Shown here in pieces: positions 2 to 32,465 of a stretch of 34,924 nt of DNA (the stretch's first letter is position 1; the number at the start of each line of letters is the position of its first letter). The position numbers and the translations under genes were made by a program. The notes beneath the pieces were generated by a model. It saw only the letters and a program-made list of their open reading frames with translations, was not told the DNA's origin and made no database searches. The stretch comes from an uncultured Saprospiraceae bacterium (GTDB lineage: Bacteria > Bacteroidota > Bacteroidia > Chitinophagales > Saprospiraceae), in contig CALBWK010000184.1 in assembly GCA_937969415.1 (NCBI GenBank), positions 1-34,924 on the forward strand, in the 5' to 3' direction.

Positions 2-493
2 GGTGACTTCAAGAATTCTAAGTTTGGATACAATCTAGGTTATAGTATGGCCTTTGAGGTGGGTAGGCAAGATTTGCTCTTGCGACCCTCTGTAGGTGTG
101 GCGATAGGAGATGGGACATATGAGTTGGCACAGCAGAATTATAGCGTCGGTACTCCACTTGTATTTGATACTCTCAATCTTACAGAACCTGTGACCTTTG
201 ATCTACGACGCAATGTAGTGACTATCAATCCTGGTATAGAATTAACTTACTTGATCAATCAGAAGTATGCCCTTGTTGTGCAGGGTCATTATGACTTAGA
301 TATAAGCAACAGGACGCAGAGAGTTACCCTAGATGCGGATAGCATAGATGGAAGTCGTCCCGCATACGAGTTTAGTGATCTGATCACTGTCAATCATATG
401 GGGAGTCCTCTCTCTAGCAAGTTATTAGATTATTCTGGCTTGCGGTTCTCCATTGGTATCAGCAGTTATATCAATAAGCAATTGTTTAATTAG
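2..493 (+). CDS. Outer-membrane beta-barrel protein, C-terminal part (5' end outside window)
   Basis: The reading frame is open from the first bases of the window and ends at a TAA at 491-493, so only the last ~163 residues are seen. An internal ATG at 47 is probably not the start, because the frame continues upstream with similar composition. The visible part has alternating hydrophobic/polar stretches (for example ELTYLINQKYALVVQGHYDLD), and the C-terminus carries a strand-like GLRFSIGISSYI segment typical of Bacteroidota outer-membrane barrels. No specific family is recognised. It is convergent with the WG-repeat gene, and the two stop regions overlap by 8 bases. The barrel call is inferred from strand pattern only. 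Confidence 0.55.
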   Translation, partial: GDFKNSKFGYNLGYSMAFEVGRQDLLLRPSVGVAIGDGTYELAQQNYSVGTPLVFDTLNLTEPVTFDLRRNVVTINPGIELTYLINQKYALVVQGHYDLDISNRTQRVTLDADSIDGSRPAYEFSDLITVNHMGSPLSSKLLDYSGLRFSIGISSYINKQLFN

Positions 494-2102
494 AGGGTCT
501 TTGCATTACACCCCACTTGCCCTTCTTTTCTGCGAGGAAGTAGCCTTTGTATTCCCCACTTGTTTTATCTAGACCTGATATTTTGTCTAGCTCACAGGGG
601 AGGATTGATTTGCCATCTTTGTCTGTGAAGCCAATCTTGCCGTTTTGCTTGACGATGTAGATGTCAGAAAATCCTTTCGCTGCCTTGACGGCCTTTGGTA
701 ATCCGTCATACCAGACAGACTTGTCTTCTCTTAAGAAATTAGATATCGGATAGCCAATTCTTTCTCGCCCCTCTTTGTTTTTCTTCATTATCGCCCAGCC
801 ATTGCTGAATGTTATGTTATCTCTCCCTTTGGTGTAATAAGACCCGACTTCATTCATATCGCTATCTAGAAGTATTTTTGTGCTATCCGAGGTGACTACC
901 TGGTAGTATCCGTCTCCGACATAACCTATTCCATTGTTGATGCTAGAGTAGATGACTTCGCCTTGATTGTTGAGTATGTTTCTCTCAAAAGTCTTACTGT
1001 TTTTCTTTTTTCTTGAATATTTGTCATTAGCTCCATAATAGTAATTAGGGCCAAGAGGCTTAGCATACTTGTACTTCGGTGTTAGTTCTGTTTGTTTGGT
1101 TTTGAGGTTATAGATGCCCACGAGATCTCCTTCTTTAAAAGTATAGGCTGGAACTGAAGTGCCACGAATCTCTTCTAGTTTGAACGGAAGGGTAGTTGTT
1201 TCTTTGGTTGCCACTGTGTAGATGGAGGTTTCATTTTCGTTGTAGCCAAGGATAAATCTTTCATCATCATATTTTTTTACACCAACGTACTTATGTGGCT
1301 TATTAAATATTTGCTCAAGATTATAATCGTAGACAAATACTTTGTCTTTTTCTTTAGTGACTTTATAATAATCGGCTCTAAATATTTTCTCCACTTTTTC
1401 ATTGCCACTAAAGTGAATTTCTCCTTTTTCGTCTATAAGGATTTTATAACCTACTAGTGTGTGGCCATTGTCTTCATTTCTCCATACATCAAGTTTTTTT
1501 GATTCTAATAGTATGGTGCCAGTGTTGTCCGTCATAACCTGGTCGTCCTTTTTTCTAGTTTTTTTGTGAACAAGATATTTGTTAGCAACAACTTCCATGT
1601 GATGGGGTACTAAATTTTTCAGTAAGGTATCACCGTCGGATTTGATGAATGTAGAAGTTTTGTATTTGCCTTCTACCTTCTCTATTTCAGGATAGTTTTT
1701 AGTTAGCCATTGCTCAACTATCTCTGCTTTGTCGTCTCTTTCTTTTTGTTGTTTGGCAGCAAACTTTGGTTGAATTTTTTTATCATAGTCAATTTGATAG
1801 CCATCTTCATCAAAGAAGCTATTGACTTTGCCTTGATCATTTTTTTCGTGATAGGCACTGAAATACTCTTCTGTTACCTGTGAGATGCTTTTGTAAATGG
1901 TGGGTACTATCTCATCATTCTTAGGTGACCGTACACCATATTTGCCATCCTTCTGTACGATAATATACTTGATAAGTTGATTCTGAATCTCCACTTTGTC
2001 GTAACCTTTAAAGGTAGGCGGTACGACCCATTCCATTTTCTGTGCTTGTGAAAAAAGACTTAAGAAAAGAATAAAACCCAGAGGTATAAATTGTTTTTTC
2101 AT
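486..2102 (-). CDS. Exported WG-repeat protein
   Basis: This 538-residue protein begins with a Sec signal peptide (MKKQFIPLGFILFLSLFSQAQ) and is predicted to be periplasmic or surface-exposed. WG-type repeats (KxGhhd..G....P..Yd.h) are visible near the N-terminus (QKDGKYGVRSPKNDEIVP), in the middle (EGDLVGIYNLKTKQTELTPK) and at the C-terminus (QNGKIGFTDKDGKSILPCEL, then KKGKWGV). WG repeats are common in Bacteroidota secreted proteins and probably serve as binding scaffolds; no enzyme motif is seen. The ATG at 2100-2102 directly precedes the signal peptide. The gene diverges from the CsgG-like cluster across a 61-base gap, so the two may be co-regulated. The function is unknown. Confidence 0.7.
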   Translation of the reverse strand: MKKQFIPLGFILFLSLFSQAQKMEWVVPPTFKGYDKVEIQNQLIKYIIVQKDGKYGVRSPKNDEIVPTIYKSISQVTEEYFSAYHEKNDQGKVNSFFDEDGYQIDYDKKIQPKFAAKQQKERDDKAEIVEQWLTKNYPEIEKVEGKYKTSTFIKSDGDTLLKNLVPHHMEVVANKYLVHKKTRKKDDQVMTDNTGTILLESKKLDVWRNEDNGHTLVGYKILIDEKGEIHFSGNEKVEKIFRADYYKVTKEKDKVFVYDYNLEQIFNKPHKYVGVKKYDDERFILGYNENETSIYTVATKETTTLPFKLEEIRGTSVPAYTFKEGDLVGIYNLKTKQTELTPKYKYAKPLGPNYYYGANDKYSRKKKNSKTFERNILNNQGEVIYSSINNGIGYVGDGYYQVVTSDSTKILLDSDMNEVGSYYTKGRDNITFSNGWAIMKKNKEGRERIGYPISNFLREDKSVWYDGLPKAVKAAKGFSDIYIVKQNGKIGFTDKDGKSILPCELDKISGLDKTSGEYKGYFLAEKKGKWGVMQRPSN

Positions 2103-2163: not shown

Positions 2164-2628
2164 ATGCATAGGTTAAAATCATTATGGCTACAACTCATTT
2201 TTATCTCCTTTCTGATGATATCGAGCTGTAGCACAGCTAAGTTTACCGCAGAAACTAGGTCCGTAAAATCCGTAGAGTCTACCCAGATAGAAGTGATTTC
2301 TGGCGGATATGGAGCGACAAAGAAGGCGGCCTACCAAAATGCGGTAGAAAACGCATTTAAAACTTTGTTAATGTATGGAGTACCTAATTCCAATCAGGAA
2401 ACTCCTCTTCTAGGGAGCAACGCTGAGCAAAAGTTTCAAGATCAACAAGCATTCTTCGATAATTTCCTAGCTTCCTCATTGGACAACTTTATCGTCAGCA
2501 AAAAGGTGAGAGGTTATAAATTCACCAATAGTAAGACCCCTTCTACGGAGGTTTCTATGCTCATCAATCTGCGCTCTGTTAGAAATCATCTCATTGCCAA
2601 TAATATTATATCAGATTTTGGATTATAG
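2164..2628 (+). CDS. LPP20/FlgT-N-like lipoprotein
   Basis: This is a 154-residue lipoprotein. A hydrophobic signal is followed by the lipobox LMISSC, with Cys22 as the likely lipidated residue. The mature part has the pattern GGYGATKKAAYQNAVENAF, the 'repeated-Ala helix after a Gly-rich strand' typical of LPP20 and FlgT N-terminal domains, and ends in strands such as TEVSMLINLRSV. These domains occur in envelope accessory proteins, including flagellar FlgT, but no flagellar genes are visible here. It is the first gene of the envelope cluster; the next start lies 4 bases after its stop. The family assignment is by pattern, not by search. Confidence 0.55.
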   Translation: MHRLKSLWLQLIFISFLMISSCSTAKFTAETRSVKSVESTQIEVISGGYGATKKAAYQNAVENAFKTLLMYGVPNSNQETPLLGSNAEQKFQDQQAFFDNFLASSLDNFIVSKKVRGYKFTNSKTPSTEVSMLINLRSVRNHLIANNIISDFGL

Positions 2629-2632
2629 CCTT

Positions 2633-3523
2633 ATGTATAAATTGAAAAGTTGCTTTTTATTAATGTTTGTAGGATTAGCTAGTTTAGCAACTAGTCAAGA
2701 CAGTTCACCTAACAAAGCTACAAGCAAGACAGTACAACCCAAGATCATAGTAGTGCCGTACACACCTGTGGATGTCTCCATAGCAGACGAGTTGAAAGCC
2801 AATGATAATGCAAGGCTGGCCATCAGTATTGTAAAGGAAGGTTTCGATAGTAGAAACTTTCCTACGGTAGATCTCAATGCTAGGCTGAAGCAACTCAGCA
2901 ACGATAGGGTTATGGAAATGGAAGATCGTACTTCTATCAAGCAAGAAGTCATCGAACTATCAGGCGCAGATATTCAGGTTGAGGTTGAGACAACAATTAA
3001 TAAGTCATCATCTGGCAATAGTGTTACGGTAATTTTATCGGCTTTTGATGCTTTCACTGGAGTGTCGTTAGCCAACAAGTCAGGTGTCTCGCCTAAGTTC
3101 TACACAGACAGTTACGAGAAGTTGATCAAAAAGGCGACGGACGAAATGATAGATGAGTTTCTCAATGTAATAAATACTCGCTTTGAAGATATAAGAGCTA
3201 ATGGTAGAATGCTGGCAATGAATATTAATTTTTCCGAGGAGTCAGAATTTGATATGGATTATGAGTTTGAGGACTATGATACATTGTCTGATAAGATTGA
3301 AAGTTGGCTTGAGGACAATGCTTACAATTCTTATTTCCATATACAAGGAATTACAGCCACTAAGATGATAGTTGATGAAGTAAGAGTTCCCCTAAAGACC
3401 CCTGAAGGAAAAAATTACCGCTACTCAAATTTTGTTCGCGAATTTAGAAAACATCTCAGATCATTGGGGCTAGAAGCTGAGCGCGACCTCCAAGGTGGAA
3501 GAATATTTATAACGATACTATAG
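2633..3523 (+). CDS. DUF6175-family exported protein
   Basis: I place the start at the ATG at 2633, giving 296 residues, because MYKLKSCFLLMFVGLASLA is a good signal peptide. An in-frame TTG at 2594 would overlap the previous gene and spoil it. The mature protein opens with a strand-rich KIIVVPYTPVDV segment, has GADIQVEV at 111-118 followed by VILSAFDAFTGVSLANKS, and ends in an alpha/beta region with VRVPLKTPEGKNYR. This order matches DUF6175, a Bacteroidota family of unknown function, as I remember it. The GADhhhph...hDhhTG pattern is also that of CsgG-type domains, shared with its neighbours. The role is unknown. Confidence 0.6.
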   Translation: MYKLKSCFLLMFVGLASLATSQDSSPNKATSKTVQPKIIVVPYTPVDVSIADELKANDNARLAISIVKEGFDSRNFPTVDLNARLKQLSNDRVMEMEDRTSIKQEVIELSGADIQVEVETTINKSSSGNSVTVILSAFDAFTGVSLANKSGVSPKFYTDSYEKLIKKATDEMIDEFLNVINTRFEDIRANGRMLAMNINFSEESEFDMDYEFEDYDTLSDKIESWLEDNAYNSYFHIQGITATKMIVDEVRVPLKTPEGKNYRYSNFVREFRKHLRSLGLEAERDLQGGRIFITIL

Positions 3524-3531
3524 AAACGACT

Positions 3532-4359
3532 ATGAAGCACTTTATCTTCTCTTTTCTCTTGATGTGCCTAGGATTCCATACGGGATTTTCTCAGAAGGCC
3601 ATAGTGAGGATTTCTGATAACAATATGGCGTCTCTGCAAGATGCGCAGTTTAAAAAAGCACTTACCGGCTTAGGCTTGAGGTTCGATTATCCTATTGCAC
3701 TAGATGTAAGTCTCTCTGAAGAGCAGTACGAAACTATAAATGGTCTTGACACCAGAGAGGTCTTTAATGCCAATCTAAATGTGCAGTATACGGACTTGAT
3801 AACAGGTAAGATTTTAGATTCCAAAGATTATCAGTTGATGGGTAGTGCTAAGAATAAGAGAGTCCTGTATAAAGGCTTATCGCAAGCTGTGCGCAAAAAG
3901 AAAAAGCAAATTCAGAAAGATGTTACGACAATCCTGGACGACAAAGAACCACTAGGGTGTGATCAAGTTGTCGCGGCAATGAAAGAGAATAGGCAGCTAG
4001 GTCAATACCAACAGGCTTTGCAACTTTCGCCATATGCCCCTGATGCCTGTACTCAAGTGGCTCCCTTGCGCCAGCAAATCTATGCTGATTACCAAGCCCG
4101 AAACTGCACTGCACACTTAGTAAAAGTAAAAGCCTTTATGGCGGTGGATGATTACAGAGGTGCTTCTAGAGAGATTGTCAAAGTAGATCCTGAGTCTGAT
4201 TGCAGTGACGACTTGCTAGTTTTGGTTACAGAATTAGATGAAAAAGTCCAAAGCGAAAAAGACAAGACGCTAGAAGCCTATATAGAATATGTCAAGAGTG
4301 AAAACCGAGGTGAATCAGCTTTTCGTTCTAGATTAATCGAAATTCTTATCAGGGAGTAA
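3532..4359 (+). CDS. Exported CsgG-cluster protein with cysteine-containing helical C-terminus
   Basis: This 275-residue protein begins with signal peptide MKHFIFSFLLMCLGFHTGFSQ. Residues ~25-120 are strand-rich and include NVQYTDLITGKILDSKDYQL, similar to the LPP20/CsgG-type beta unit of its neighbours. The second half (~140-275) is helical, with spaced cysteines (GCDQV, DACTQ, ARNCTA, SDCSDD) and TPR-like helix pairs, and could carry disulfides in the periplasm. Its start lies 8 bases after the DUF6175 stop. Its TAA overlaps the next ATG by one base (TAATG), so translation is probably coupled. I do not recognise a named family. Confidence 0.6.
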   Translation: MKHFIFSFLLMCLGFHTGFSQKAIVRISDNNMASLQDAQFKKALTGLGLRFDYPIALDVSLSEEQYETINGLDTREVFNANLNVQYTDLITGKILDSKDYQLMGSAKNKRVLYKGLSQAVRKKKKQIQKDVTTILDDKEPLGCDQVVAAMKENRQLGQYQQALQLSPYAPDACTQVAPLRQQIYADYQARNCTAHLVKVKAFMAVDDYRGASREIVKVDPESDCSDDLLVLVTELDEKVQSEKDKTLEAYIEYVKSENRGESAFRSRLIEILIRE

Positions 4360-5147
4360 TGAGATCAGCTATCCATCTTATTCTTTTGGTCTGTATGTTA
4401 CTGATCAGTAACAGTCTATCAGGTCAAGCAATAAATTTTGTTGTCGAGAAACTTGATAGTGATCAGCTCGGCTTTAGTGCAGCAGCTAGAATTACAAACC
4501 ATAATATAGAGGAAACTATAGTTGCTAACCCTGCAGCTGTCGTCGTAGATAGAGAGACCTTTGTAGATGTAGAGACTGAGCGAGAGCGGCAAAAGTCAGA
4601 GTCGTTTATCGATGGTCAGTATGTCGAGCAAGGGAAGGCTCTGGGGGCGGATTTTATGATTTTCCCAAGCTATACGAGTGCTTCTAGGCTCCTAATTTTA
4701 CGTGTTGTAGATGTGGCTAAGTCTGCAGTTGTTATCAATAAAGAGTATCCACTGTCGCACTTTGTAGACAAAGACGGAAAACTAGATCGCCCCGACTATT
4801 ATGCTAGATATGTCAATGAAATAACGGAAGGGCTCTTGCAAGACTTCACAGCCTTTCATATGACAATAAAGTTGGTGGGTATAGAGAAAGTAGATAAGGA
4901 GAAAGCAAAGGAAGCCTTAATTTATTGTCCTAATGACTGTACGCTTAAGCCCAAAACAGAGATAGATTTATTTCATAGAAGGGCTATAAAGAACACAGAA
5001 CTTTTTAAGTATGACCAGATCGGAAGTGCAAAGATAAAAAATGATGAGTCCAACGGTCTTTATCTGATTTCGGTTAAGAAGGGCGGCGAGGTCCTACTAA
5101 AATTAAATAACGAAGAGCAAGAAGTGTATGCTAAAATTAAGTCTTAA
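4359..5147 (+). CDS. CsgG-like exported protein with C-terminal KKGG module (copy 1)
   Basis: This 262-residue protein has signal peptide MRSAIHLILLVCMLLISNSLSG. The N-terminal part carries a CsgG-like core: GADFMIFP at 96-103, then LLILRVVDVAKSAVVINKEY. The C-terminal ~45 residues form a separate module with IGSAKI (221-226), VKKGGEVL (239-246) and a closing NNEEQEVY. The same module recurs in the gene at 5955, and more weakly in the one at 5128. It is coupled to both neighbours: a one-base overlap upstream and a 20-base overlap downstream. By analogy with CsgG and FlgT it may be a periplasmic part of an envelope complex; this is inference. Confidence 0.6.
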   Translation: MRSAIHLILLVCMLLISNSLSGQAINFVVEKLDSDQLGFSAAARITNHNIEETIVANPAAVVVDRETFVDVETERERQKSESFIDGQYVEQGKALGADFMIFPSYTSASRLLILRVVDVAKSAVVINKEYPLSHFVDKDGKLDRPDYYARYVNEITEGLLQDFTAFHMTIKLVGIEKVDKEKAKEALIYCPNDCTLKPKTEIDLFHRRAIKNTELFKYDQIGSAKIKNDESNGLYLISVKKGGEVLLKLNNEEQEVYAKIKS

Positions 5148-5958
5148 GGTGATATTGATGTTGGCAATTGCAGGCCAACTCCTGGGGCAATCTAATTGGA
5201 TTGCGGAGTTAGAAGGAAGTTCTTATGGTGATAGTCCAACAATTTCCTATATAGAGCAGGATGATAGCTACAGTCTGCTTCCAAAAAATTGGATTGAAGA
5301 GTTTAATACTGGAATCGAGTATGGATTTAAAAACGCGAATGTATTTAGCAAAATTTACCCAATGGGGTGGAGCGGCGGCTCTTATCTGTCAAAAAAGAAG
5401 GGGGCACATTATTTGGCCAAGCTCGATATTCAACAAGTATTGCTTGATGGTAAAGTGCCAGAGGAATATTATTCTGCAAAGTCGGCAGACGTTTTTGTCC
5501 TTGCCATCTTAAAGGTCTATGATGTTATAGATGGCACGCTTGAGATAGCTAAGGAAATAACCTTTGAAGATAAAATAAATCCGTACGATGAAGTGGATGA
5601 GATCGCTGGCCATTTCAGAAAAGAAGTGTCCAAGACTCTATGGTCGAGATTCGGAAAAATTACGCCTGTGTACAAGGCCAATATTGTAGAAGAAAAGGGT
5701 GGCAAGCTCCAGTCGCTTTTCATTAATAAAGTAAATTATGCGCGGATGCTTAGTCCTAAATATCTAACTGCATACAGAGTTGTTCAAGAAATCAATGGTA
5801 TGGCCATCTTTGAGATATTGGGCAATCTGCAAGCAACTAAGGATTCAAAGGCAGCAAGCCGTGTACACTTAAATGCAGTAAGAGGAAAGAAGGAAATACT
5901 TAATGCACTCAATGCTGAACAGCAGGTCTATCTCACCACTAAATCATTAGCGAAGTGA
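5128..5958 (+). CDS. CsgG-like exported protein (divergent copy 2)
   Basis: This 276-residue protein starts 20 bases inside the previous gene, at ATG 5128, and has signal peptide MLKLSLKVILMLAIAGQLLG. It follows the same design as its neighbours. GAHYLAKL at 92-99 aligns with GADFMIFP and GASYVMES, and LAILKVYDVIDGTLEIAKEI with the hDh(T/S)G strand pair. The C-terminal module is degenerate: LGNLQA, then VRGKKEIL at 251-258 and LNAEQQVYL. Its TGA overlaps the GTG start of the next gene by four bases. No catalytic motif is visible. It is probably a paralogue produced by old tandem duplication; the function is unknown. Confidence 0.6.
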   Translation: MLKLSLKVILMLAIAGQLLGQSNWIAELEGSSYGDSPTISYIEQDDSYSLLPKNWIEEFNTGIEYGFKNANVFSKIYPMGWSGGSYLSKKKGAHYLAKLDIQQVLLDGKVPEEYYSAKSADVFVLAILKVYDVIDGTLEIAKEITFEDKINPYDEVDEIAGHFRKEVSKTLWSRFGKITPVYKANIVEEKGGKLQSLFINKVNYARMLSPKYLTAYRVVQEINGMAIFEILGNLQATKDSKAASRVHLNAVRGKKEILNALNAEQQVYLTTKSLAK

Positions 5959-6938
5959 AAAAGTTATCTATTATATTATTCATAGGGTGGCTGTCTATTG
6001 CAAGCTTGATGTCTCAGGCCAACTTGCCAGGGGTGATTATCGAAAGACCTCAGACCAAGGCACAGTGGCATACATTCAATTTGGACAAGCATCTCTATAA
6101 TATTATGCTTGAAGCAGCTGTAAATCAAAGTGCTATCTATCACGTCATCGATGAGAGCAATTTAGAGTTAATGACTCAAGTAAGAGCGGAAGCTGTCAAA
6201 AATTTTTCTGATCTGCCTTCCGCTCAGATGATTGGCGCATCTTACGTAATGGAGTCAAAAGTTCTTGATTACAAGGAAACAACCAAAAAATACTATAAAC
6301 AAATAAAGCAAGATGATGGGTCTTATAAAGATGGGGCTTGTGATAAGCGAGGTATGGATGTCACCATTAAGCTCAATATGAATCTTGTTTCTGTTGAGAC
6401 CAGTGAAGTTGTGAGCTCAAGGGAATTTGTTGTGTCTGGATTTGCTACCCGTGATTGCAACAAGTTTAAGGTAGAGGAAGATAAAGTGCGCAAGGAATGT
6501 ATAGCAGATTTTAGATCCTGTATGGAACTCTTGTTTAAGAAAAATATGATGGACCTATTGCAGGCGAAACTAAAAGTGGAAGGTATGCTTAAGACCAAGA
6601 AGGAATCAGCCAAAGAGTTGATTATAAAATCTGGGCCTTTTGGCAACGTTGGTGCAGGTGTCAATCTAAAGGTGATCAGTATGTCTGCACAAGATGTAGA
6701 TGGTGTTGAGGTAGTTAGAGAAAAGCAGATTGGCGAAGCAGAGATTGTAAGCGTACGATATGGATCTTCATATCTAAAAGTAAAAAAGGGTGGCAAGGAA
6801 ATATACCAGAGTATGTCAAATAATGAGAACCTCTATGTCGTCTATGATAAGAATTACCGCTATGTGGATTGTAGCGGAAAAGGGGCACCTAAAAAGCGAC
6901 GCGAATTAAAAAGAAGATTGGAGGGGTATGATAAATAA
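5955..6938 (+). CDS. CsgG-like exported protein with C-terminal KKGG module (copy 3)
   Basis: This 327-residue protein starts with GTG in the GTGA overlap and has signal peptide MKKLSIILFIGWLSIASLMS. It is the clearest CsgG/FlgT-like member. It has the strand-helix order of that fold, with YHVIDESNLELMTQVRAEA, then GASYVMES at 94-101, then NMNLVSVETSEVVSSREF. Four cysteines (C129, C168, C181, C189) could form disulfides. The C-terminal module has IGEAEI (259-264), VKKGGKEI (276-283) and NNENLYVVYDK (289-299), followed by a basic tail (PKKRRELKRRLEG). It lacks a lipobox, so unlike CsgG it is probably soluble in the periplasm. It is the last gene of the overlapping run. Confidence 0.65.
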   Translation: MKKLSIILFIGWLSIASLMSQANLPGVIIERPQTKAQWHTFNLDKHLYNIMLEAAVNQSAIYHVIDESNLELMTQVRAEAVKNFSDLPSAQMIGASYVMESKVLDYKETTKKYYKQIKQDDGSYKDGACDKRGMDVTIKLNMNLVSVETSEVVSSREFVVSGFATRDCNKFKVEEDKVRKECIADFRSCMELLFKKNMMDLLQAKLKVEGMLKTKKESAKELIIKSGPFGNVGAGVNLKVISMSAQDVDGVEVVREKQIGEAEIVSVRYGSSYLKVKKGGKEIYQSMSNNENLYVVYDKNYRYVDCSGKGAPKKRRELKRRLEGYDK

Positions 6939-7018
6939 CCAACTCAATAATCTAGAATTGTAGTTCTTAATGTTACAGCCACACGAGAGAAAATTAAACA
7001 CAACCTAATATTATAATT

Positions 7019-8704
7019 ATGAATAAACTATCCCTAATGTTGCTTGTCTGGCTCATTGTCAGTATCGGCACAGTATCGGCACAAAAACTAGATCACGTAG
7101 AGTTGCCTTCCAATAGTACAGAGAAAATGTCTGTCATCAAAGTCATAGAAAATGGCGATGAGATGCGAGTCTTTGTGACTTCACAAGAAGTGGTGACAAG
7201 TATGGAAGTAGAAAATCTAAAAATTACTATCCTAGAAGTTTTAGACTTTAATGCAGAAGGGCAGTCTCGTACTGTAGGTAAGCACGTCTTACATAATGAA
7301 GCTTTTCACGGATTTAAGTTTACCCTTAAGCGTGGTAGGACGACTTTTGGAAATCAGGATGACGTGATGACGTACACTGCTCTGCAGGAAATGTATCCAG
7401 AATTAGCAGATGTAGACTACCTCGACTCAGCAAATAGAAAGATGCCAGTGGCGTTCTATCGTAGCACTTTGAATACTGGAGCATTTAAGCCAAAGGTTAA
7501 GGGATTTTCTAGTGTAAAATACTCGTCAGATGAGTCAGCTATAATGGAAAAGCCTAAAAAGAAAAAGAAAAAAGGGCTGATGAACAAATTGGCTAATGCC
7601 GCCGAAAGCGTTAACAAATTAGATAATAAACTCAATAAGAAAAAGCAAACCTATCAGGTTGTCAGCGAGGTAGAATTGAACTGGGAAGACCAGTATAATG
7701 GCGGACAAGACAAGAAGAATTTTTGGAAGGGAATGGCTGCAATGTCTTCTCAAGCAACTGGTAATGTTCTAGCTGTTAATGCTAAAAAAGTGAATAAGGA
7801 TGCGACTCATGAGCAAAAAAATAAAGAGATCGTTGTCTTTAGTCCAATGGGAGAAGTTGTTGCCAGAAAGGAATGGGTAACTGAGGTGCCTTGGATTAAA
7901 ATTGGTGCTAAGGAAAGATATAAGGAAAATGATGAGAAGGCTACAGATATAGATTTCTTGGCCTTAGCCTTTAAGCAGAATACTGCTAAAAAGCAGAATC
8001 CTGATGGGAATAAAAAGCAAATTTCCATATCGGCTATTGGTGCTGATGGAGCATTCTTGTATGACCATATTTATGACCTACCAGAGGAATTCCGTAGTAT
8101 GGATACTATGGTGACAAGAAAAGGTCAGAAAACTGTTTTTGTAGGGAAGATGAGCAATGGGCAAAAATTTGTGACTGTTTCTACACCTCAAGGACAGAAG
8201 TTACATACAGTTTCTCAAGATTCAGGAATAAAAGGAGACGTGGTCAATTATTTTACAACTAAGTCTGGAGAATATGTGGTTTATGCGAATAAGTCACTTA
8301 GGACGAAAGCCATTGAAAAATACTTTGTCTGTCCAGTGAGTGCAAGTGGAGTAGGCGAGCCTATGATCATACCTGTCGATCTCAAAGATGGAACAGATTC
8401 TAGGATTGATGTGCTCATAGATGAAGCGGATAGAACAATTATCCAAACCAAACAAATGGCTAAGGGCATCAATGATTTTAAGTATGCCCTCACATTACCA
8501 ACCTTGTATGAGTTGACAGATAGTGGTGTGACGCAAATAACGAATCTAGAAGATAATATGATGACAATGAATAAGGCAGAAGTCAATAGTAATACCAAGG
8601 TGTATAAAACCAATGACGCAAGTTATTTTGTCGCAAAAATCTTTAGACCTTGTGATAATGGCGATAAGTGTGTCACCAATGCACTAATGAAATTGACTTA
8701 CTAG
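7019..8704 (+). CDS. Orphan exported protein with internal lysine-rich linker
   Basis: This 561-residue protein has signal peptide MNKLSLMLLVWLIVSIGTVSAQ and no family that I recognise. The N-terminal ~160 residues are mixed alpha/beta. Then comes a very basic stretch (~181-215) with KPKKKKKKGLMNKLANAAES and LDNKLNKKK. The C-terminal ~340 residues are beta-rich, with recurring motifs such as EIVVFSPMGEVV, ISISAIGADGAFLYD and KFVTVSTPQGQKL, which suggest propeller-like blades. It lies 80 bases after the CsgG-like run on the same strand and is followed by a good terminator, so it may be the last gene of the cluster. No catalytic residues can be identified. Confidence 0.6.
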   Translation: MNKLSLMLLVWLIVSIGTVSAQKLDHVELPSNSTEKMSVIKVIENGDEMRVFVTSQEVVTSMEVENLKITILEVLDFNAEGQSRTVGKHVLHNEAFHGFKFTLKRGRTTFGNQDDVMTYTALQEMYPELADVDYLDSANRKMPVAFYRSTLNTGAFKPKVKGFSSVKYSSDESAIMEKPKKKKKKGLMNKLANAAESVNKLDNKLNKKKQTYQVVSEVELNWEDQYNGGQDKKNFWKGMAAMSSQATGNVLAVNAKKVNKDATHEQKNKEIVVFSPMGEVVARKEWVTEVPWIKIGAKERYKENDEKATDIDFLALAFKQNTAKKQNPDGNKKQISISAIGADGAFLYDHIYDLPEEFRSMDTMVTRKGQKTVFVGKMSNGQKFVTVSTPQGQKLHTVSQDSGIKGDVVNYFTTKSGEYVVYANKSLRTKAIEKYFVCPVSASGVGEPMIIPVDLKDGTDSRIDVLIDEADRTIIQTKQMAKGINDFKYALTLPTLYELTDSGVTQITNLEDNMMTMNKAEVNSNTKVYKTNDASYFVAKIFRPCDNGDKCVTNALMKLTY

Positions 8705-30695: not shown

Positions 30696-32465
30696 GTGGT
30701 AAAGTTATCCTATTTGTGGTATAGACAGACATATCTTATTCTAGGTTTTTGGTTATGTGCTTTTGCAATAGGAAAGGCACAGGTAGATACTATTGCAATC
30801 AAGTTGGATAATGCAGCCGATATAACACTCTTAGAGGATTCTATAGTTATCCAAGAGCGCTCGGCAGTCTTGTCTTACTTTGAGGAACTTGTGACAGGCC
30901 TGATTGCAGAAGATCATCTTGAGGCCAACCTAGATTCTTTGCTTGTTGATGAAAAGGAGGCTTACACAACTGCCTTGCTCCATATAGGACCTCAGTATAG
31001 TGTAGAAGCGCTAGAGCTAGATAGTCTGAGCGAAAATCTGCTTGATAAATTGAAAGTTAAAAAACCCAACTCCGCGAGAGATTTTCTTTCTATGCGCGAA
31101 TCTATCAAAGACTACTATGGAAATAATGGTTATCCTTTTGCCAAAGTCAAGTTAGATGACATTAGCCTTGAAAGTGGAAGGATAACCGGCGGCCTATCTA
31201 TAGACCTTGGCCAACAAGTCATTATGGATAGTCTAGTCATCAAGGGCGATCTGAAGTTGAGAAGGAGTTATCTTAGAAATTATCTTCAGATCTTTCAGGG
31301 TGAAGTGTATGATCATTCCAAAATGCGTACAGTCAGAAGGAAGCTGGATCAACTTAATTTTGTAACTGTTGTCAAGGATCCGGAGCTGAGTTTCATTACT
31401 AATTATGCTACACTTGATCTTTATGTAGATGCTAAAAATGCAAGTCGTTTTGATCTGATATTTGGCGTTATTCCGACCAATGCACTTAACAATCGGCAGC
31501 TTTTTTTGTCTCTAGACTTCACGGCAGAGTTGCGCAATAAGTTGGGCTATGGAGAGTATTTTTTATTTGACTTTGAGCGGTTGCGACCAGAGCAGCAGAA
31601 ATTGGATCTTAGATTTAATTATCCCTATTTGCTAGATACACCATTTGCGATAGATACGCGATTTAGCATATTCAGAAATGCACTCAATTATCAGACGGTC
31701 TTGGCGGATATGGGCTTGCAGTATTTTGTCAACAGCAGTGACAAGATCAAAGTCTCTTATTACGCAGAGACCTCTAGAGTTGTAGAGCTGGATACGGTAA
31801 CGATACTCAATGGTAATATACCTCAGGATCTGAGCATCAGGCAAGTGGGTTTGGCGGTAGAGCTAGATATGTCGAGATTAGACTATAAGTTTAATCCACG
31901 TCGAGGCTTTGCGCTTAATTTCCAGACGATAGTAGGTCGGCGACAGGTTTTGCAAGATGGTTCATTGACGGAGTTCATTGATCGTAGCGAGGCTTTTGCG
32001 ACAGCTTTTAATAGTCTAGAAAAACGGACTCCGAGATATGAGTTTAAGTTCTTGGGGTCATACTTCCTGCCCTTAGCGCAGCGTGGGGCCCTAGGACTGA
32101 TTGTTAATGTAGGGCATAAGCAATCCTCTGCCGAGCTCTTAAGAAATGAGCTGTTTCAGATTGGTGGGAATAAATTATTGAGGGGTTTTGATGATGCCTC
32201 TGTTTTTACGCCTACCTATGGTATAGCCTCGTTGGAGTATCGACTGGCTTTGGGCAAGAATTCTTATTTTCAATTGCCCTTTATTGATGCTGGCTTTGTG
32301 GATTTGGATGGCGAATTGACTTTTGTGTCAGGTGTAGGAGGCGGTATGGTGTTGGAGACGAAAGTGGGCCTATTTAATTTTTCTGTTGCGGCGGGAAGGT
32401 TGCCGGGTGAGTCTTTTGACTTCAGTCGACCGAAGGCGCATTTTGGGTATATCTCATTGTTTTAA
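30696..32465 (+). CDS. Omp85-family outer-membrane protein (POTRA plus barrel)
   Basis: This 589-residue protein has an N-terminal signal (YLILGFWLCAFAIGKAQ) and an acidic ~100-residue spacer. One or two POTRA-like domains follow (~120-250), with MRESIKDYYGNNGYPFAKVK and VIKGDLKLRRSYLRNYLQIF, then a C-terminal 16-strand-type barrel. The Omp85 signature RGF appears in LLRGFDDASVF (Arg496). The final strand ends in Phe (AHFGYISLF), as needed for BAM recognition. It is smaller than BamA and more like TamA or FhaC relatives. The start is GTG 30696; TTG 30714 is an alternative. Function in protein export or assembly is likely, but the client is unknown. Confidence 0.85.
   Translation: MVKLSYLWYRQTYLILGFWLCAFAIGKAQVDTIAIKLDNAADITLLEDSIVIQERSAVLSYFEELVTGLIAEDHLEANLDSLLVDEKEAYTTALLHIGPQYSVEALELDSLSENLLDKLKVKKPNSARDFLSMRESIKDYYGNNGYPFAKVKLDDISLESGRITGGLSIDLGQQVIMDSLVIKGDLKLRRSYLRNYLQIFQGEVYDHSKMRTVRRKLDQLNFVTVVKDPELSFITNYATLDLYVDAKNASRFDLIFGVIPTNALNNRQLFLSLDFTAELRNKLGYGEYFLFDFERLRPEQQKLDLRFNYPYLLDTPFAIDTRFSIFRNALNYQTVLADMGLQYFVNSSDKIKVSYYAETSRVVELDTVTILNGNIPQDLSIRQVGLAVELDMSRLDYKFNPRRGFALNFQTIVGRRQVLQDGSLTEFIDRSEAFATAFNSLEKRTPRYEFKFLGSYFLPLAQRGALGLIVNVGHKQSSAELLRNELFQIGGNKLLRGFDDASVFTPTYGIASLEYRLALGKNSYFQLPFIDAGFVDLDGELTFVSGVGGGMVLETKVGLFNFSVAAGRLPGESFDFSRPKAHFGYISLF

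Follow-up and report, generated by a model that had tools for sequence, protein, structure and literature searches.

In two reports, the flagellar proteins FlgP and FlgT are described as forming outer-membrane-associated rings or disks (PMC12222027, PMC11756786), and the first of these attributes a shared SHS2-like fold to FlgP, Lpp20, FlgT and dodecin. For the Pel system, a third report describes how twelve PelC lipoproteins make up a ring that is mounted on the barrel of PelB (PMC12141448). Here we describe an array of six genes, g1 to g6, in which domains of related kinds occur together. The array lies in a window of 34,924 nucleotides, the whole stretch of DNA that was analysed, which is contig C184 (CALBWK010000184.1) of a 3.84-Mb assembly, 95.1% complete, from an uncultured bacterium whose closest named relatives are Saprospiraceae. 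Our tentative reading is that the array encodes a Bacteroidota envelope module, a periplasmic assembly, probably in the form of a ring, that docks on a barrel of the outer membrane.

In FlgT, an SHS2-like part stands before a CsgG-like part. Like flagellar FlgT/FlgP (FlgO), the array is exported and has CsgG/TolB-N-type (FlgT_M) domains together with, in g1, a possible LPP20/SHS2-type domain, and in relatives with g1 fused to g2 the g1 part likewise comes ahead of the CsgG-like one. The array differs from FlgT/FlgP in that these domains reside on separate genes, and in the presence of three CsgG-like paralogues (g4 to g6), a DUF6175 C-domain in g2, and a TPR-like g3. A flagellar ring proper is rejected, as a search of the window's own assembly at E ≤ 1 did not detect FlgI, the P-ring protein; a control matched 4 of 14 named genomes including E. 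coli, three of them over the cut-off. With regard to PelB-PelC, PelC is the top structural match for the g2 N-domain, and barrel and TPR-like segments turn up repeatedly near the operon, whereas no PelB-like TPR-barrel protein was identified and g2 is without a lipobox (lipoboxes were sought throughout with a simple pattern). The core fold of curli CsgG is common to the array's CsgG-like family; however, this family lacks a stretch found between strands of CsgG and rarely has a lipobox. No window protein exceeds the Pfam CsgG cut-off, and CsgF likewise went undetected at E ≤ 1 in that assembly (a control matched 7 of 14 named genomes including E. coli, one over the cut-off), so that a curli system is also rejected. 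That neither FlgI nor CsgF was found agrees with the view, put forward in an earlier note on this DNA, that flagellar and curli genes are not nearby. Finally, LpoB is an outer-membrane lipoprotein to which many CsgG-like relatives show a Pfam match, from which the array family is set apart by an extra C-terminal part, a rare lipobox and its multi-gene setting.

The same note knew of no system with this composition, and the literature searched, which lacked most subscription papers, indeed gave no account of a CsgG-like/LPP20/DUF6175 gene set and contained no paper with the term 'DUF6175'. The parts are of known kinds, and it is their combination that is, as far as could be seen, undescribed; the first interpretation is corrected in that g2 falls in the named family DUF6175, and g4 to g6 form one family that is represented by a single gene in canonical operons.

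The array and its protein families

The six genes occupy positions 2164-6938 of the plus strand and are all of exported type, with a hydrophobic signal-like N-terminal stretch discernible by eye in 6/6. From g1 to g6 the junctions are +4, +8, -1 (TAATG), -20 and -4 (GTGA) bases, which, with open reading frame (ORF) coordinates re-derived, bears out the packing of exported-protein genes first noticed. Chance packing of the array is rejected in view of the conservation of the set in 80 loci. Within the array a lipobox was found in g1 only, and an NCBIfam search of the array together with the flanking genes g0 and g7 yielded no useful assignment.

The second gene, g2 (2633-3523, ATG start, plus strand), matches Pfam DUF6175 (PF19672), a named family without a function, at 236.8 bits (E 3.6e-70; curated cut-off 23 bits). 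Its AlphaFold model, built from 69 sequences, has a predicted local distance difference test score (pLDDT) of 90.5, and the N-domain (model residues 34-190) is matched structurally by PelC (Z 11.5; residues 34-181, 114 aligned, 2.8 Å), CsgG (Z 10.6), TolB (Z 9.3) and FlgT (3w1e, Z 9.1). Foldseek returned the LPHT ring at E 8.4e-5, with GNA1162, HpaA, FlgT, PelBC and CsgG also within E 8e-5 to 4e-4, while the matches extended very little into the C-domain (about 191-295), which is left without an assignment. The N-domain of g2 is accordingly of the PelC/CsgG/TolB-N/FlgT-M type, which gives DUF6175 a structural assignment for its N-domain in addition to a place in a defined operon. The profile comparisons (hhalign; some g2 alignments used the window g2 without its initial methionine) linked g2 with g4-g6 at E 3.2e-10 untrimmed, part of which reflects the signal peptide, and at 6.7e-5 after trimming; with other alignments the values were 0.003 for the core CsgG-like set and 0.083 for the g6-like one. 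As the profile link shrinks after signal-peptide trimming, it is the fold on which the assignment of g2 to the CsgG superfamily rests. Sequence searches of the PDB with the g1, g2 and g3 profiles found nothing credible.

The genes g4 (4359-5147), g5 (5128-5958) and g6 (5955-6938), all on the plus strand, were grouped by iterated profiles, and sequence comparison indicates that they are paralogues within one CsgG/LpoB/FlgT-type family, g5 being the most diverged. Against the core family, the g6-like set aligned at E 9.4e-40 and the g5-like set at E 2.7e-12, and a joint g4-g6 profile recovered CsgG (E 4e-4) and FlgT (E 0.029) from the PDB. Among 83 members of the CsgG-like alignment, Pfam matches at E ≤ 0.1 were to LpoB in 55 (best 6.5e-11), CsgG in 51, FlgT_C in seven and FlgT_M in five. 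A relative in locus L094 (loci examined carry L numbers) exceeds the LpoB cut-off at 36.9 bits, whereas g6 falls under the cut-offs for both CsgG (17.7 bits, cut-off 20.8) and LpoB (15.4 bits, cut-off 22.3), no window protein exceeds the latter, and g4 and g5 have no Pfam match at E ≤ 1. Nothing in the family profile corresponds to a 13-residue stretch between core strands of CsgG, which we take to include a portion of that protein's first membrane hairpin; the second hairpin lies outside the alignment, and no hydrophobic replacement for the stretch was evident by eye in g4-g6.

A CsgG-type fold in at least four members, as had been predicted, is therefore supported by fold for g2 and by homology for g4-g6. 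The motifs originally quoted for these four proteins were located in all of them; by itself, however, the motif is weak evidence, because its general form, GA[DHSENKQ][YFIVML] in residues 61-160, is present not only in 76/80 g2 relatives and 40/122 CsgG-like relatives but also in 30/328 other ORFs of 240-400 amino acids in the loci examined.

The first gene, g1 (2164-2628, plus strand), encodes a 154-amino-acid lipoprotein with a lipobox at Cys22. Its AlphaFold2 (AF2) model has a pLDDT of 91.8, and the top VIA-align rows were Tip-alpha (Z 5.3), Lpp20 (Z 4.5) and dodecin (Z up to 4.5), all below the Z of 8 in the tool's guide; Foldseek found no credible match (best E 0.099). The modelled fold thus weakly resembles Tip-alpha/Lpp20. 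Pfam had no match for g1; LPP20 (PF02169) was not over the cut-off in g1, was not among the 25/26 families listed for 59 members of the g1 alignment, and did not turn up when the own genome was searched at E ≤ 1e-6. The earlier description of g1 as an LPP20/FlgT-like lipoprotein consequently holds for the lipobox and the general look of the model, and is weakened by the low Z-scores and the missing Pfam LPP20 match.

The third gene, g3 (3532-4359, plus strand), encodes an exported protein with a TPR-like C-terminus: at E ≤ 0.1, TPR_19 was matched in 10 and ARM_TT21 in 31 of the 62 members of the g3 alignment. Alignment of the g3 N-domain to the core of the CsgG-like family gave E 0.0017, while the same core gave E 0.17-0.56 against g1, g0, the candidate barrel protein upstream and a ~190-amino-acid protein of related operons. 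A CsgG-like N-domain in g3 is kept as doubtful because g3 aligns with g1 as well (E 0.0014 over 25 columns).

Conservation, gene order and fusions

A scan with g2 produced 166 relatives; the top 80 loci by likeness to g2, which contain 82 g2 copies, were retained. Neighbours were counted in six-frame translations, a simple greedy ORF caller having missed g2 in L081 and L123. With profiles that were iterated on the same loci as were counted, g1 was directly upstream of g2 in 70/80 testable copies, g3 was directly downstream in 71/77, and a separate CsgG-like gene lay no more than 5.5 kb from g2, in the same orientation, in 69/71 (11 copies near contig ends were dropped). The g1, g2 and g3 genes occur together across several orders and in distant loci; among 12 distant loci drawn from elsewhere in the phylum, a g1-like stretch and g3 were each found in 11. 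Since these loci keep g1 and g3, mostly without a g4-g6-family gene, sequence comparison points to g1-g2-g3 as the core of the set, with CsgG-like proteins as a frequent addition that has expanded here.

What had been proposed as a conserved order is better described as a conserved set, kept across genera and orders, in which the position of the CsgG-like genes varies: relative to g2 they are upstream only in 55 copies and downstream only in 14. In the canonical operon of Bacteroides, Flavobacterium and Sphingobacterium, the order is a ~190-amino-acid gene, one CsgG-like gene, g1, g2 and g3; in many Saprospiraceae it is a CsgG-like gene, a double CsgG-like gene, g1, g2 and g3; and in the window and its kin it is g1 through g6, an order shared by the cultured marine species Neolewinella persica and N. 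agarilytica. The ~190-amino-acid exported protein, which is first in the canonical operon of the three named genera and others, is conserved before the CsgG-like gene in 28 loci (for example L094, 8081-8626) and has no convincing Pfam match.

Fusions provide a further association. A single chain with a g1 match followed by a g2 match was found in L150-L153 and L157 (L150 and L157 being from one genus), while g1 is a separate gene in L155 and was not detected in L154. In Bacteroides finegoldii (L162) a 421-amino-acid g1-then-g2 protein is encoded downstream of a CsgG-like gene and upstream of two LPP20-type proteins, and the RefSeq annotation there places DUF6175 beside two LPP20 lipoproteins. 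Pfam LPP20 matches neighbouring proteins in both L150 and L162, and the g3 equivalent of L150 starts with this domain. At the place of g5 and g6, loci L055, L057, L061 and L063 contain a 634-675-amino-acid protein that carries two CsgG-like-family domains.

Isolates with the set include Neolewinella, Flavobacterium, Chryseobacterium, Sphingobacterium and Bacteroides congonensis, and carriers extend to Bacteroides, Barnesiella and Prevotellaceae. With the own genome included, DUF6175 occurs in 14/61 family genomes and 19/395 phylum genomes, and g6 in 3/14 genus genomes and 15/199 family genomes; in most of the genus the array is therefore absent and not scattered, scattering among close relatives being the finding that the earlier note had held would count against it. 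The g2 tree mostly tracks orders (7 changes, the least possible being 5). A search with the DUF6175 protein of L094 hit two records, one labelled as a plasmid and the other as a phage, both of which seem from their genes to be chromosomal Bacteroidales; in view of these records and the tree, a mobile element is rejected.

A candidate periplasmic assembly and its alternatives

If the tentative reading of a docked, ring-like module is followed, g1, once lipidated, would be held at a membrane, probably the outer membrane on its inner side, and would anchor the assembly. The CsgG-superfamily domains of g2, g4, g5 and g6 would form an oligomer encircling the opening of an outer-membrane beta-barrel on the periplasmic side, and the TPR-like part of g3 would serve as a connector. 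The resulting collar might position, seal or gate an outer-membrane passage, much as PelC would do on PelB or the FlgT/FlgP rings in flagella, and the cargo could be an exported surface polymer or protein. What the sequences show is the gene set with its domain types, conservation and fusions; the membrane location, a physical complex with the fixed stoichiometry proposed in the earlier note, the rings and the gating are inferred from them. If indeed the proteins form a complex, ring-forming folds of flagella, curli and Pel export would be linked to an accessory envelope system of the Bacteroidota.

A number of observations weigh against this reading. The domain fold of g2 is common to the non-ring proteins LpoB, TolB and LptE, the TM-scores of its Foldseek matches are low, and LptE and parts of prolyl-tRNA synthetase reach Z 8.3-9.1 with g2 (the synthetase up to 8.5). 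A lipobox was found in only 34/69 g1 relatives and 5/122 CsgG-like relatives, and is absent from g4, g5 and g6. A g4-g6-family gene is present in just two of the 12 distant loci (L156 and L161) and in none of L021-L024 and L033. In the two-domain proteins the second half is g6-like, yet the first half fits the g6-like profile at least as well as the g5-like one, so that it is by position that they can be called g5-g6 fusions. By eye, no barrel gene adjoins the set in L083, L094, L095 and L110, and the barrel-like ORF that lies upstream in the window lacks Pfam support, its copies in L035 and L051 having no match to a barrel family. Finally, the patchy occurrence of the set gives no hint of function.

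A bolder form of the proposal, which is doubtful, is that of a phylum-wide, non-flagellar outer-membrane machine without a described counterpart, present also in gut Bacteroides, in which an SHS2 lipoprotein and several CsgG-superfamily subunits would be stacked as multiple rings around a barrel.

It is unlikely that no common machine exists and that the genes encode a cluster of periplasmic proteins, partly duplicates, which bind separate ligands and have stayed together through operon inheritance. The CsgG/TolB-N fold is common, g4-g6 are clearly duplicates, and the profile links between g1, g2, g3 and the CsgG-like family are weak or absent after signal-peptide removal, all of which would fit such a cluster; the linkage of g1-g2-g3 over several orders and distant loci, and the fusion of g1 to g2 in some of them, argue against it. 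Still less likely is a role as LpoB-like regulators, whereby a peptidoglycan synthase would be stimulated or held back by CsgG-like proteins extending to it from the outer membrane, with g1-g3 helping in their placement: LpoB is the Pfam family that matches most CsgG-like alignment members, with the L094 relative over its cut-off, yet the window members fall under this cut-off, the lipobox expected of a protein such as LpoB is rare, and many distant loci hold g1-g2-g3 without any CsgG-like gene. Least probable is a secretion channel of the CsgG kind, in which the CsgG-like subunits would themselves form the outer-membrane pore, through which a small partner would be exported, for instance the ~190-amino-acid protein of Bacteroides and Flavobacterium operons, for despite the Pfam and PDB matches to CsgG and the recurrence of that exported protein before the CsgG-like gene, the 13-residue CsgG stretch is unmatched and, by eye, not replaced by a hydrophobic one in g4-g6, the lipobox is rare, CsgF was not found, and the ~190-amino-acid gene has no relative among the window ORFs.

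Flanking genes and related loci

A candidate barrel is found at the very start of the window, where the plus-strand ORF at 2-493 is the 3' part of a ~260-amino-acid exported beta-rich protein within which the contig begins; it is a possible accessory, judged from reading its sequence to be a candidate outer-membrane barrel. Between it and the array lies g0 (486-2102, minus strand), divergent from g1, another possible accessory, which encodes an exported WG-repeat protein (WG_beta_rep 26.5 bits, cut-off 25.6). Homologues of the barrel-like ORF lie upstream of g0-g1 in L051-L054 and L035/L067, and g0 homologues occupy the same position in these loci.

Related gene runs contain comparable parts. 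In a second operon type, a protein of 400-640 amino acids, t2, precedes g1; its C-terminal part is weakly barrel-like in L024 (8.5e-4) and L154 (5.2e-4), under the Pfam cut-off. In L160 the order is g2, g3, a WG-repeat gene, t2, a barrel (8e-6, under the cut-off) and g1, and in L163 it is a WG-repeat gene, t2 (by eye), g1, a possible barrel, g1, g2 and g3. Because these two runs hold WG-repeat and barrel or possible barrel genes, the window's barrel-like ORF and g0, which are kept in L051-L054, are plausible members of the set.

Two of the related records carry unexpected labels. L162 (NZ_OY725910.1, 83170-101164) is labelled as Bacteroides finegoldii 'plasmid 8', and contains dusB, dprA and other chromosomal-type genes, so that it is perhaps a chromosomal contig; its diverged DUF6175 operon also has a weakly transglutaminase-like protein (E 0.088). 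L163 (MT836698.1, the whole of a 9-kb faecal record) is labelled 'Bacteriophage sp.', and with its WG-repeat gene, g1, g2 and g3 resembles gut Bacteroidales DNA, not phage. In L023 (409-4461) and L024 (11275-15363) an exported protein of ~1350 amino acids follows g3 on the same strand; the L023 copy has no Pfam match, and no relative was seen in the other loci examined.

On the far side of the array, g7 (7019-8704) encodes a 561-amino-acid exported protein with no Pfam match over the cut-off. The earlier note had extended the array to 8704 and so took in g7, which is not counted as a member: it is separated from g6 by 80 bases, and among the loci examined its relatives come from just one very near relative, present twice as L035 and L067. 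Beyond g7 the sequence is ordinary chromosome, with purine nucleoside phosphorylase among its genes, and far downstream, at 30696-32465, the window encodes a protein with POTRA and Omp85-superfamily domains.

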